Source: Chitinophagaceae bacterium (lineage in GTDB: Bacteria > Bacteroidota > Bacteroidia > Chitinophagales > REEL01). Taken from it: 32,316 nucleotides of DNA. Location: contig REEL01000095.1 in assembly GCA_007695095.1 (NCBI GenBank), positions 1 through 32,316 of the forward strand, written 5' to 3'. The notes beneath the pieces were generated by a model. It worked only from the letters and a program-made list of their open reading frames with translations. It was not told where the DNA came from and did no database searches. Made by a program: the position numbers and the translations under genes. Below, one piece after another: positions 24,419 through 32,316 of the stretch (position 1 is the first letter of the stretch; every line of letters begins with the position of its first letter).

Positions 24419-24431
24419 TTTTGCAACAACG

Positions 24432-24460
24432 TTGCATAAACTCAAATTTTTGTATCTTTG
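24432..24460 (+). promoter_or_regulatory. Promoter of the second TonB-dependent receptor gene
   Basis: TTG (24432-24434), an 18-base spacer and TATCTTTG (24453-24460) match the Bacteroidota -33 and -7 consensus. The start would fall near 24466, six bases before the ATG at 24472. An in-frame TTG at 24421 lies upstream of the whole promoter and cannot be the start on this transcript. Confidence 0.7.
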
Positions 24461-24471
24461 CATATCTAATT

Positions 24472-26886
24472 ATGCAGTCAATTTTCCATTTAAGATTTTT
24501 TCTAGTATTCGCTATAGCGGTACTCATACTTTTCAAGCCGGGTTTTTCTGAAAATCCGATTTTGGAAGAAGTTGATGTCAGTCAGCGCTTTAAATTAGAG
24601 GGCTATGTCTTTGATGTAGAAGGAGAACCACTTACAGGCGCACAAGTATACCTGCATGAAACTTTAAATGGAAGCATAACCGATCAAAACGGATTTTACA
24701 GTATTTCCAATATCAAACCGGGCTCTTACCATCTGCATATTAAGTTTCTAGGATTTGAAGCTCATGCTAAAACAATAGAAATAAAAAACCGTGATGTACA
24801 ATACAGCTTTAGCATGCGAAATACGGATTTGGAAATCTCGGAAGTTATCATTGAAAGTAATCTACTTAAAAGAAAAGCCAGGGAAAAATCTCTGAGTATA
24901 GAAGTTATAAGTGCTGAGCAAATCAGGGAAAAAGGCGGCAATACTTTAATTCATTCTTTAGAGCATATTCCGGGTGTAAATGCTATGTCTACCGGAACAA
25001 ATATCGTCAAACCTGTCATAAGGGGGCTTGGTTTTAACAGGGTATTGCTGAACGAAAACGGTATTAAACAAGAAGGTCAGCAATGGGGTGAAGAACATGG
25101 ACTGGAGATTGATCAGTTCGCTGTTGAAAGAGTTGAAGTTATCAAAGGTCCGGGCAGCTTACTTTATGGCTCAGATGCTTTGGGTGGTGTGATAAACATT
25201 TCACCTCAAAGATATCCTTCCGGAGATTTCATAAAAGGAGGTGTCGATTTTAATGCCCGCAGTAACAATGAATTGATTGGTTTGTCTGCCTATTCGCATT
25301 TTCAAAAAAACAGAAAGTTTATATATTTCAGAGCTTCAGCATTAGATTACGGTGACTTTAAGGTACCGGCTGATTCTTTTACCTACAATCGCTATATTTT
25401 GCCCATTGAAAATGAGCGCTTGAAAAACACAGCCGGTCGTGAATACGCTTTAACCGGCCGCATAGGCATACAAGGTGACAGAGGATCTTCCAACTTACAA
25501 ATCTCGAATATTGACCAAACCATTGGGTTTTTCCCCGGAGCTATTGGCATACCGAGAGCATATTTATTGGAAGATGATGGAGACAGCCGGAATATTGATA
25601 TTCCTAATCAGGAAATTAGTCATTTTAAAGTAATTTCAAACAATACATTACTTTTTCGTAAAAACTGGTTAGATATTGATCTGGGCTTTCAACAAAATGT
25701 ACGAAATGAAATCTCATTTCCTCACAGTCATGGATTTGGACCCAGACCGGAGGACAGTTTGGCTTTAGGACTAAACCTCAAAACATTTACAGCTAATATG
25801 AGATACTATTCCCGCTTAAATGAAAGCATTAACTTCATAACAGGAATCAATTCTCAGTACCAAATCAATGAAATTTCAGGTTTTGAATTTTTAATTCCCG
25901 AATACAGAAGCATACAGGCCGGGATTTTTCATTTTGCCGAGTGGGATGTTTCTGAAAGCCTGATTGTTAATGGAGGTATTCGTTTTGATTATGGCTATTT
26001 TGACATAGATGAATACTTAGAACCGCTTTACTCAGAGCCGGAAGTAATAAACGGTTTTTATGAGCGGGTTCCCGATACAGAAAGAAATTTTTACAATTTT
26101 TCAGCAGGCTTAGGCTTGTCTTATATGCCCAATGAAAACTGGAATTTTAAATTTAATTCAGGTCGCAGTTTTAAAATGCCGAATATTGCTGAATTAGGAG
26201 CTAATGGGGTGCATCACAGCACATTCCGCCACGAACAGGGCAATCCCGATTTAGACGTAGAAACCGGCTATCAGTTTGATGTTTCCATGACGTATCGCAC
26301 TTCAAATTTTCGAATTGCTCTTTCTCCGTTTTTTAACTACTTTGACAATCATATCTACCTGCAACCTTCAGGTACTTTTTCTTTTTTACCGCATACCGGG
26401 CAACTTTATAACTATGTGCAGGCCAATGCCGTACATTTTGGAGGAGAATGGCTTTTAGAGTATCATCCGGTTTCTTTTCTGCATTTAGAATGGAATACGG
26501 AATATGTGATGGGGCATAATATTGAAGAAAATTATCCGCTTCCTTTTATCCCTCCCCTCACCAATCGCTTTATTGTTGAATACAGACATAACAAAGACTA
26601 TGGCCCTTTAAATAATATACACTTGAATTTTCAGGCAAGGCATACTGCCAAACAAAGCCGAATCCAAAGAAATGAAAAAGCAACTGATGGCTACCTGCTT
26701 TTCAATGCAGGCATAGGCACGAGTATAGATGTAAAAAATCAATCTTTTTACCTGCAATTCCGGGTTGATAACATTTTAGATACCCGCTACAAAAATCATT
26801 TGAGTTATTACCGCTTACTGAATCTGCCGGAAGCCGGGAGAAATTTCACCCTCAGTATCAGCATTCCATTACATAAAGATTTGTAA
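24472..26886 (+). CDS. TonB-dependent receptor (metal uptake inferred)
   Basis: An 804-residue outer-membrane receptor. The signal peptide (about 1-26) precedes a carboxypeptidase-regulatory-like beta domain (about 42-118: GYVFDVEGEPLTGAQVYL...DQNGFYSISNI), a TonB-box-like EISEVIIES (about 119-127), and a plug with VEVIKGPGSLLYGSDALGGVIN (about 216-237). A 22-stranded barrel should follow to the C-terminus. The plug and barrel (QQWGEEHGLEIDQ, GANGVHHSTFRHEQGNPDL) resemble the zinc/copper-type receptors of the ZnuD group, so metal-ion uptake is my inference. It lies alone after the DMT gene, with its own promoter. The ATG at 24472 fits the signal peptide. Confidence 0.88.
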   Translation: MQSIFHLRFFLVFAIAVLILFKPGFSENPILEEVDVSQRFKLEGYVFDVEGEPLTGAQVYLHETLNGSITDQNGFYSISNIKPGSYHLHIKFLGFEAHAKTIEIKNRDVQYSFSMRNTDLEISEVIIESNLLKRKAREKSLSIEVISAEQIREKGGNTLIHSLEHIPGVNAMSTGTNIVKPVIRGLGFNRVLLNENGIKQEGQQWGEEHGLEIDQFAVERVEVIKGPGSLLYGSDALGGVINISPQRYPSGDFIKGGVDFNARSNNELIGLSAYSHFQKNRKFIYFRASALDYGDFKVPADSFTYNRYILPIENERLKNTAGREYALTGRIGIQGDRGSSNLQISNIDQTIGFFPGAIGIPRAYLLEDDGDSRNIDIPNQEISHFKVISNNTLLFRKNWLDIDLGFQQNVRNEISFPHSHGFGPRPEDSLALGLNLKTFTANMRYYSRLNESINFITGINSQYQINEISGFEFLIPEYRSIQAGIFHFAEWDVSESLIVNGGIRFDYGYFDIDEYLEPLYSEPEVINGFYERVPDTERNFYNFSAGLGLSYMPNENWNFKFNSGRSFKMPNIAELGANGVHHSTFRHEQGNPDLDVETGYQFDVSMTYRTSNFRIALSPFFNYFDNHIYLQPSGTFSFLPHTGQLYNYVQANAVHFGGEWLLEYHPVSFLHLEWNTEYVMGHNIEENYPLPFIPPLTNRFIVEYRHNKDYGPLNNIHLNFQARHTAKQSRIQRNEKATDGYLLFNAGIGTSIDVKNQSFYLQFRVDNILDTRYKNHLSYYRLLNLPEAGRNFTLSISIPLHKDL

Positions 26887-27988: not shown

Positions 27989-29383
<1,395 letters not shown>

Positions 29384-29852: not shown

Positions 29853-32316
29853 ATGATTAAAAAATACTTTTTACTAACAAACTTTATCTTCCTAATAAGT
29901 TTATTTTGCCTCAACCTGCAAGCCCAATCCGTAACTATTGTCCAGCCAAATGGCGGGGAAACATTATATAGTTGTGAAGTTTATCCCATTACTTGGAATC
30001 AGTCGGGTTCTTTATCTAATTACTGGAATATTGATTATTCCTTAGATGGCGGAACAATTTGGGCATCTGTAGCCTCAAACTTCCAATCAACAACCGGAGA
30101 ATACCTGTGGACTGTACCCAATGTAAGTTCAACTACGGTTTTAATCCGTGTCAGGGATGCTCAAAATCTGTCCACACAAGACATAAGTGATAGTCTTTTC
30201 TCCATTAACTTTCCTATACAAATTACTTCCCCGGTCGGTGGCGAAGTATGGCAAGGACTCAGCACTCAACAAATTACCTGGGATGCGGGTGGAACTTCGA
30301 ACACATACCAAATCCACTATTCAAAAAACGGTGGGAATACATGGATTCCTATAGTTACCAACTACTCGTCACTTACAGGGACTTACGACTGGACAGTACC
30401 GAATGACCCGGGTTCAAATGTTATAGTCAGAGTTCGGGATGCAGCTCAATATTGCAAACAGGATATCAGTAATGTATTTGAAATCACCCCTGCCCAACCG
30501 GTTTTATTAACCCCTAACGGAGGAGAAGAATTATGGCCGGGATGTAGTTATCAAATCACCTGGGATCAGGAAACTTTTTATTCAAATGTAAGATTGGAAT
30601 ATTCAGATGACAACGGAGTCACCTGGAACACAGCCTTTAGTTCAACATCAAATAATGGCAGCAGAAACTGGACGCCACCTGCGAATATAATTCCCGGCAA
30701 TCAATACTTAATCAAAGCATCCAACACAGCAGATTTTAATGTGTTTGATGTGAGTGATGCACCTTTTACCATACTTGAACCCATTGAGATAATTAATCCA
30801 ATGGCCGGTGATACGGTATATGGATGTAATCTATTAGCAATAGAAATGATAAAATCAACTTGTATAGGTAATTTCAGGGTTTTGTATTCCTTAGATAACG
30901 GAGCAACATGGAGTACCATTATCACATCTTTATCGAACACTTCTAACAATAACCAGATATACGAAAACTGGACAATCCCAAATGGCATTACAACCGATGA
31001 AGCTATCATAAGAGTTGAGCGAGCTTTTGATAATACTGTTTTTGCAGAATCGGAAGTGTTTAGCATACGTCCAAGTAATGATATTACCGTAACCGCACCT
31101 ACTCCCGGAGAGTCAATCAATGCCTCAACAACTTATCAAATCACTTGGGACAACACACCTAATGTTTCCGGAGCTTATGACTTACATTATAAAACAGTGA
31201 GCAGCGGATGGACAACAATCGCAACGAACATTACAGGAAATGCCTATAATTGGAATGTCCCCAATATGAGTGCAAGTACTGTGCAAATAAGAGTAAGAGA
31301 CAGAAATAATACTTGTAAAGCAAATATTACGGAGAATTTTACAATAATACCGGATCAACCGATACTATTGGGACCAAACGGCGGGGAAGAATTTTGGCCG
31401 GGATGTTCTTACCCGATTACATGGGACGCCAGTACTTTTTATACGAATCCGACTATTCAATACTCTTCAGATAGTGGAAGTACATGGACAACAATATGGA
31501 GTACATCCACAAATAATGGCAGTAGAAACTGGGGCGTACCCATTGGTGCAACACCGGGCGATAATTATCTCATCAAAATTTTCAATAGCGGTAATTCCAC
31601 TTTACATGATGTGAGTGATGCACCTTTTACAATTAAAACTCCTCTTACAGTAATAGAACCTGATGAAACAGACACTTTAATTGGTTGTACAACATTCCCT
31701 ATACGATTTGAAACTTCGGGTTGTATAGGCAGCTTAAGAATTTCTTATTCTATCGATGGAGGTGACAACTGGACTGTCATTGTTTCATCTCTATCTAACT
31801 CTACTTCCGGAATGAGAACTTACAACTGGAGTGTACCTAATGGTATTAACACAGATGAAGCAAAAATAAGAGTTGAAAGAGCATTTGACAGCAGTGTTTT
31901 TCATGAATCAGAACTGTTTAGCATCAGGCCAAGCGATGAGATAGATGTTTTAACCCCAACTGCCGGAGAATCAGTTCCGGCTTTACAGCCTTATGAAATT
32001 ACCTGGAATCATACCCCTGTAGTATCTGAATTTGAAATTCACTATAGTATAAACGATGGAGGTGTATGGAATTTAATAGATAATAATGTATCCGGAACAA
32101 GTTTTACCTGGGAACCGCCAAACACCCCTACTTCAACTGCAAGAATAAGAGTCAGAGACCGTTTTAATTACTGCAGACACGAAGTAAGCGATGCTTTTAC
32201 AATTACCCCTGCCCAACCGGTTTTACTTACTCCCAACGGAGGAGAAGAACTATGGCCGGGCTGTAGTTATCAAATCACCTGGGATCAGGAAACTTTTTAT
32301 TCAAATGTAAGATTGG
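29853..32316 (+). CDS. Large secreted multi-domain repeat protein (3' end beyond window)
   Basis: An open frame from ATG 29853 to the window edge with no stop, 821 full codons. A signal peptide (about 1-25, ending QAQS) leads into tandem domains of 92-100 residues. Each typically has PNGGE near its start, an ITW strand, YSxDxGxTW and an RVRD-type C-terminal strand. This resembles the Kre9/KNH Ser-Thr-rich domain family and other Ig-like sandwiches of secreted Bacteroidota proteins. The PNGGE-equivalent residue of domains 1-9 falls at 33, 128, 222, 317, 417, 509, 604, 703 and 795. Domains 3-5 and 6-8 form an A-B-C pattern, and domain 9 restarts A. B domains lack the ITW motif, and cysteines occur at fixed spots. 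Surface adhesion or type IX secretion is plausible but unproven, because any C-terminal sorting domain lies outside. Confidence 0.9.
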   Translation, partial: MIKKYFLLTNFIFLISLFCLNLQAQSVTIVQPNGGETLYSCEVYPITWNQSGSLSNYWNIDYSLDGGTIWASVASNFQSTTGEYLWTVPNVSSTTVLIRVRDAQNLSTQDISDSLFSINFPIQITSPVGGEVWQGLSTQQITWDAGGTSNTYQIHYSKNGGNTWIPIVTNYSSLTGTYDWTVPNDPGSNVIVRVRDAAQYCKQDISNVFEITPAQPVLLTPNGGEELWPGCSYQITWDQETFYSNVRLEYSDDNGVTWNTAFSSTSNNGSRNWTPPANIIPGNQYLIKASNTADFNVFDVSDAPFTILEPIEIINPMAGDTVYGCNLLAIEMIKSTCIGNFRVLYSLDNGATWSTIITSLSNTSNNNQIYENWTIPNGITTDEAIIRVERAFDNTVFAESEVFSIRPSNDITVTAPTPGESINASTTYQITWDNTPNVSGAYDLHYKTVSSGWTTIATNITGNAYNWNVPNMSASTVQIRVRDRNNTCKANITENFTIIPDQPILLGPNGGEEFWPGCSYPITWDASTFYTNPTIQYSSDSGSTWTTIWSTSTNNGSRNWGVPIGATPGDNYLIKIFNSGNSTLHDVSDAPFTIKTPLTVIEPDETDTLIGCTTFPIRFETSGCIGSLRISYSIDGGDNWTVIVSSLSNSTSGMRTYNWSVPNGINTDEAKIRVERAFDSSVFHESELFSIRPSDEIDVLTPTAGESVPALQPYEITWNHTPVVSEFEIHYSINDGGVWNLIDNNVSGTSFTWEPPNTPTSTARIRVRDRFNYCRHEVSDAFTITPAQPVLLTPNGGEELWPGCSYQITWDQETFYSNVRL
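30484..32316 (+). repeat. Higher-order tandem repeat within the secreted protein
   Basis: Super-units begin at the A-domain PNGGEE codons at 30516, 31377 and 32235, giving periods of 861 and 858 bp (287 and 286 codons). Within each unit the spacing from A to B is 95 residues, from B to C 99-100, and from C to the next A 92. The copy starting at about 30484 and the one at about 32203 encode the same 38 residues with all differences synonymous, and the last 55 bases of the window match exactly. The middle copy (about 31345) is more diverged. Confidence 0.9.

Follow-up and report, generated by a model that had tools for sequence, protein, structure and literature searches.

Predicted interdomain disulfides in the three-class super-repeat of a giant secreted Ig-like protein from a Chitinophagaceae bacterium

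Locus and Reading Frame

The window, meaning the whole stretch of DNA analyzed, is the complete contig REEL01000095.1 (32316 bp) of a Chitinophagaceae bacterium. As a preliminary description made from the sequence had reported, a frame of 821 codons starts at the ATG in position 29853 and runs off the window without a stop codon, so that the end of the contig truncates a giant gene. The features of this region are:

24421-26886, forward strand: TonB-dependent receptor with a carboxypeptidase-regulatory-like N-terminal domain, an ordinary member of its kind
27989-29383, reverse strand: RNA ligase gene of the RtcB family (PF01139, 121.7 bits), oriented divergently to the giant gene
29853-32315, forward strand: N-terminal 821 codons of the giant secreted tandem-Ig protein, open frame (Pfam PF10342, 48.6 bits; Reelin_subrepeat-B, 57.5 bits)
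29853-29924, forward strand: signal peptide, residues 1-24, with predicted cleavage LQA/QSV (between A and Q) and Gln at +1, read by eye from the sequence

The contig ends in frame and no second fragment of the gene was found elsewhere in the same genome, even at E up to 10; therefore the interruption arose in the assembly, the gene being repetitive. The repeat at the contig end was also considered as an assembly overlap artefact and rejected, because its DNA identity is only 81-90%, which marks it as real sequence. The putative Sec-type signal peptide supports the secretion proposed in the description, and Gln at +1 fits the Q-rule of Bacteroidetes (PMC5837995). Eight proteins encoded upstream in the window, including the RtcB-family ligase, showed no match near the genes of the relatives described below; thus, the gene context gives no functional clue.

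Domain Organization and the Three-Class Super-Repeat

Downstream of the signal peptide, the protein shows 8.3 Ig-like domains (eight full domains and 33 residues of a ninth), which start at residues 26, 121, 216, 310, 410, 503, 597, 696, and 789. Their positions, all on the forward strand, and their cysteines, named after the loop that holds them (AB or BC, before or after strand B; FG, after strand F), are:

29928-30212: domain 1 (B slot); AB-loop Cys41 at 29973-29975
30213-30497: domain 2 (C); FG-loop Cys201 at 30453-30455, predicted partner of Cys41
30498-30779: domain 3 (A); AB-loop Cys231 at 30543-30545
30780-31079: domain 4 (B); AB-loop Cys325 at 30825-30827 and BC-loop Cys337 at 30861-30863; predicted pairs 231-337 and 325-488
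31080-31358: domain 5 (C); FG-loop Cys488 at 31314-31316
31359-31640: domain 6 (A); AB-loop Cys518 at 31404-31406
31641-31937: domain 7 (B); AB-loop Cys612 at 31686-31688 and BC-loop Cys624 at 31722-31724; predicted pairs 518-624 and 612-774
31938-32216: domain 8 (C); FG-loop Cys774 at 32172-32174
32217-32315: domain 9 (A), first 33 residues only; AB-loop Cys804 at 32262-32264, predicted partner (BC loop of domain 10) beyond the contig

HMM searches agreed with the proposed domain family, PF10342 (Kre9_KNH, Kre9/KNH-like Ig-like): the score of the whole protein, obtained over five stretches, lies above the gathering cut-off of 24.6 bits, and the best single domain scores 25.8 bits. Pfam matches to BNR/Asp-box families are sub-threshold and located on an S-x-D-x-G-x-x-W hairpin, and a match to Sortilin-Vps10 is also weak.

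Comparison of domains 3 to 8 confirmed the existence of three domain classes: identity within classes is 59% (A3/A6), 54% (B4/B7) and 43% (C5/C8), vs. 24-33% between classes. The duplication of whole three-domain blocks was likewise borne out, by an A-to-A spacing of 287 and 286 codons, as first described, and by DNA repeats within the gene spaced 861, 858, and 1719 nt apart. Neither an absence of the classes nor an early stop, named beforehand as outcomes that would speak against the description, occurred within the window. Domain 2 is C-like, as had been noted. Domain 1 occupies a B slot by its position and its cysteine pattern; an assignment from sequence alone failed, with 34.6% identity to the internal B domains, 38.1% to C, and 36.9% to A. 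The signature ascribed to the B domains, loss of ITW and a conserved DEAxIRVERAF...FSIRPS end, holds in the lineage of the window but not across the family, in which 62 of 76 B-slot domains keep [IV]xW.

At the contig end, the partial A9 together with the end of C8 is 81% identical to A3/C2 over 185 nt, at a distance of 1719 nt. In an 89-nt core, A9 matches A3 at 90%, and A6 matches A3 at 71%.

Related Arrays, Array Length and Copying

About 30 related tandem arrays were found in other Bacteroidota genomes, the arrays being taken from genomes of the same order and from named Bacteroidota MAGs, including Flavobacteriales and Crocinitomicaceae. The preliminary description knew of no named family with this exact three-part architecture; the architecture is not unique, as it recurs in these proteins. 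Most of them read B-C-A from domain 1, and this is the register of the series, which was first described as A-B-C. When each of 214 domains from the regular members was matched to its closest counterpart in a different protein, the position class (modulo three) agreed in 210 cases, which indicates that the A/B/C classes are not due to chance.

Nine long arrays contain exactly 21 domains, that is, seven triplets, and four more contain 24, corresponding to 21 plus three inserted B domains; other arrays have 28, 17, and 15 domains. The proteins with the seven-triplet length, or with seven plus three extra B domains (L036, L037, L049-L052, L060, L065-L067, L069, L073, and L075), are diverged from one another. 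Inner triplets are up to 95-100% identical at the DNA level in L049, L050, and L051, whose assemblies consist of one to three contigs, so that their domain counts are unlikely to result from assembly collapse. A fixed array length despite homogenization of the inner triplets suggests selection on length or reach. Triplets of L049 and L060 resemble the next but one more closely than their direct neighbors, which suggests that the copied unit spans two triplets (six domains), and the likeness of A9 to A3 in the window fits a duplication step of this kind.

Structure Models and Fold Comparison

The fold check proposed in the preliminary description was run with AlphaFold2 and predicted all-beta sandwiches both for domains 1-6 (pLDDT 91.7, and a pTM of 0.61 that does not isolate the hinge) and for an A-B-C block (pLDDT 94.2, pTM 0.78). 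The best bacterial fold match among the matches listed was GhpA of Aureispira (9fly; Foldseek E 1.5e-15). Fibronectin 1fnf was matched with Z 11.4 and rmsd 9.8 over 348 aligned positions, while macroglobulin domains of complement C3/C5, S-layer and fibronectin fragments were tied at Z 9-10. These fold matches are rows of Ig/FnIII domains and none implies a function. Sequence relatives with solved structures show only short Asp-box or FnIII-like stretches.

Cysteines at Domain Junctions

The mature protein of the window has 11 cysteines (residues 41, 201, 231, 325, 337, 488, 518, 612, 624, 774, and 804), and all of them are junction-loop cysteines: five pairs in adjacent domains, and Cys804 at the cut end. 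The modeled secondary structure agrees with these loop assignments (AB, BC, and FG). An Ig-type sandwich carries its AB loop at the C-terminal end, opposite the BC and FG loops, which are N-terminal; therefore, an AB-loop cysteine and its partner in the BC or FG loop of the following domain would meet at the junction. The two cysteines of a B domain are unlikely to pair with each other, because a strand of eight residues separates them in the model.

Across the family, an AB-loop cysteine is found in domain i if, and only if, a BC- or FG-loop cysteine is found in domain i+1. Among the unique junctions, 197 have both cysteines, 176 have neither, none has the donor only and four have the acceptor only (Fisher P 1e-104, a value that ignores kinship, the junctions being related by descent and the events not independent). 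The four acceptor-only junctions belong to L073 and L075, at domains 17/18 and 18/19, and their extra cysteines can pair within the domain. The rule is lost when the partner is shifted by other domain offsets, and it also holds at the inserted B/B junctions of L065-L069.

The three kinds of junction of the regular members differ. Both cysteines are found at all 81 B/C junctions (B then C); at the A/B junctions (A then B), 35 have both, 28 neither and two the acceptor only; at the C/A junctions (C then A), which have no predicted staple, 67 have neither and two the acceptor only. Domain 1, which is not preceded by an A domain, has no BC-loop cysteine. At the A18/B19 junction, both partners (the AB-loop cysteine of A18 and the BC-loop cysteine of B19) are missing in every stapled member examined. 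On the best tree of the first three domains the A/B pair changes twice, one change being forced by well-supported branches. In an alignment of A-B-C blocks with 37-52% identity to the block of the window, 19 of 19 rows keep all four cysteines. On this sequence pattern, neighboring domains are very probably pinned to each other by predicted disulfides across the B/C junctions and, in most lineages, the A/B junctions.

Elsewhere in PF10342, junction cysteines were found neither in 21 proteins that mostly contain a single domain nor in the 17-domain array L038, and distant arrays of up to 52 domains from other classes of the phylum have almost none. The B/C rule is also obeyed by L079, which comes from a different family within the same class, at three junctions that were read by eye. 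Five junctions of distant arrays had appeared to be acceptor only. Three of them, in L079, were discarded as misregister: their donor cysteine is clearly visible, in QTQC. The remaining two, in L084 (domains 35/36) and L087 (domains 31/32), show instead an EF-region cysteine in the preceding domain, opposite a cysteine that follows strand B in the next one, and possibly represent an independent interdomain pair of different geometry. In the final domain of an array, an AB-loop cysteine needs its partner in the next, unrelated module; in L052, no cysteine was found at the start of that module. A second cysteine located in strand F (STTC-LVRV, for example in L049 domains) occurs in 217 of 403 domains of the relatives, where it is exchanged with Ala or Val, and is absent from the protein of the window. 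This cysteine is probably buried.

Export and Surface Fate

A type IX secretion (T9SS) C-terminal domain had been suggested. The C-terminus of the window protein itself lies beyond the contig end, but in the relatives the suggestion holds: TIGR04183, the T9SS type A sorting domain, scored above its cut-off of 23 bits in all six complete C-termini tested (35-51 bits), and the genome of the window has at least 150 TIGR04183 matches. Relatives also carry further Ig/PKD-like modules after the array. In L049, encoded by a gene of 2110 aa in a complete single-contig chromosome, no T9SS sorting domain is visible and the protein ends 75 residues after domain 21. Type A processing anchors T9SS cargo of this class to surface LPS. 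The analysis of the tandem-Ig protein identified no ligand-binding module.

Proposed Architecture and Alternative Explanations

By analogy with its relatives, the complete gene of the window would encode about 21 domains in total, followed by additional modules of Ig/PKD-like type and, at the C-terminus, a T9SS sorting domain. The chain would fold in the oxidizing periplasm, with one disulfide formed at each stapled junction between the AB-loop cysteine at the far end of domain i and the BC- or FG-loop cysteine at the near end of domain i+1. B/C junctions would be stapled in all regular members, A/B junctions in the lineage of the window and most others, and C/A junctions never; each A-B-C block would then be a covalently locked, rigid strut about three domains long, and the C/A junctions would be the only hinges. 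The T9SS would export the folded rod, which the type A sorting domain would anchor on the surface as a stiff, extended stalk, most likely that of an adhesin. In this phylum, disulfides that join envelope proteins have a function and matter in T9SS and gliding (PMC12635249).

We consider it probable that the gene encodes such a T9SS-exported cell-surface filament, with Ig triplets locked by interdomain disulfides and hinges at the C/A junctions, most likely as the stalk of an adhesin. With somewhat less assurance, we favor a lineage-specific stiff filament of covalent three-domain struts, with a hinge at every third junction and a length held at seven triplets despite homogenization. Gain or loss of a triplet would leave no unpaired cysteine, so that duplication would naturally proceed by blocks of three domains, and from the cysteine pattern we infer that the junction cysteines may explain in physical terms why the unit is A-B-C.

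The cysteines might be incidental, reduced or only loosely paired, in an ordinary tandem-Ig adhesin whose triplets record nothing but gene copying. Block duplication does copy any pattern passively, and the long PF10342 arrays of other classes work with almost no junction cysteines. However, passive copying leaves unexplained the invariance of the four cysteines of the block at 37-52% identity, as well as their paired absence at A18/B19 and in lineages without the A/B pair, and we regard this explanation as unlikely. Bonds formed between chains, bundling parallel filaments or a ring as in oligomeric surface fibers, would use the same cysteines, and GhpA, the best bacterial fold match among those listed, is described as a T9SS-secreted protein that forms a heptamer (PMC11205867). 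The covariation, nevertheless, joins neighbors in the sequence in a fixed direction, including A18/B19 and the inserted B/B junctions of L065-L069, and pairing between chains would predict that direction only if the chains exchanged partners in register; this makes bundling quite improbable.

The array could also be no stalk but itself a binding or catalytic part, as in a glycan-binding Asp-box or a carbohydrate-active protein. The weak Pfam matches to BNR/Asp-box and Sortilin-Vps10, and the reelin subrepeats in solved structures, point in this direction, but the shared piece is the short hairpin described above, neither a catalytic domain nor a sialidase propeller was found in the Pfam search, and the fold matches are Ig/FnIII rods. 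We therefore give a binding or catalytic array little credence compared with a stapled stalk.

Comparison With Known Systems

Giant tandem-Ig proteins on the cell surface are already known, as are the domain family and the export route, and the new element is the predicted stapled triplet. Long tandem arrays of PF10342 occur elsewhere in Bacteroidota, but isolated domains of this family and almost all junctions of its distant arrays lack the paired cysteines, which in the family of the window accompany a three-class super-repeat. T9SS type A proteins share the TIGR04183 domain in which the six complete relatives end, and the window protein shows Gln at +1; the sorting domain tells the export route and says nothing of what the protein does. 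GhpA, the grappling hook of Aureispira (9fly), is also a giant T9SS-exported Ig-like protein of the same phylum, but its TM-score against the six-domain model is only 0.20, with 11% identity, which is no evidence of a common function. The profile-sequence comparison gave no match to GhpA at E up to 1, the part of GhpA available in the PDB being the base only.

Extenders of RTX adhesins (MpAFP/MpIBP and MhLap) are long rows of beta-sandwiches whose junctions are stiffened by linker calcium, so that the tip reaches out (PMC7493085). They differ from the family of the window, with its predicted disulfides and every third junction free, both in their calcium linkers and in their secretion route. 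RTX adhesins are marked by RTX nonapeptide repeats and type I secretion; complete relatives of the window protein carry T9SS domains instead. The giant adhesin of Mobiluncus mulieris has 51 Ig-like domains with ester, isopeptide, disulfide and thioester cross-links within domains and a flexible interdomain linker (PMC10619420); it is also a covalently hardened giant Ig array, but in the family of the window the cross-links are predicted between domains. No report of interdomain disulfides, one per junction, in bacterial tandem-Ig proteins was found in the open-access papers searched, which is not proof of their absence.

Long bacterial adhesins need stiff stalks, and the solutions described in the studies cited above are linker calcium or cross-links within domains. 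If the stapled triplet is real, a disulfide across junctions, with hinges at set positions, would add another way of stiffening and would explain why such genes grow by three domains at a time. The cysteine pattern also provides a simple test to recognize such proteins and to predict their domain pairing from sequence. Besides the window, the assemblies of L053, L055, L057, L061, L062, L071, and L074 are broken inside this gene, so that draft genomes contain it too rarely and in truncated form.
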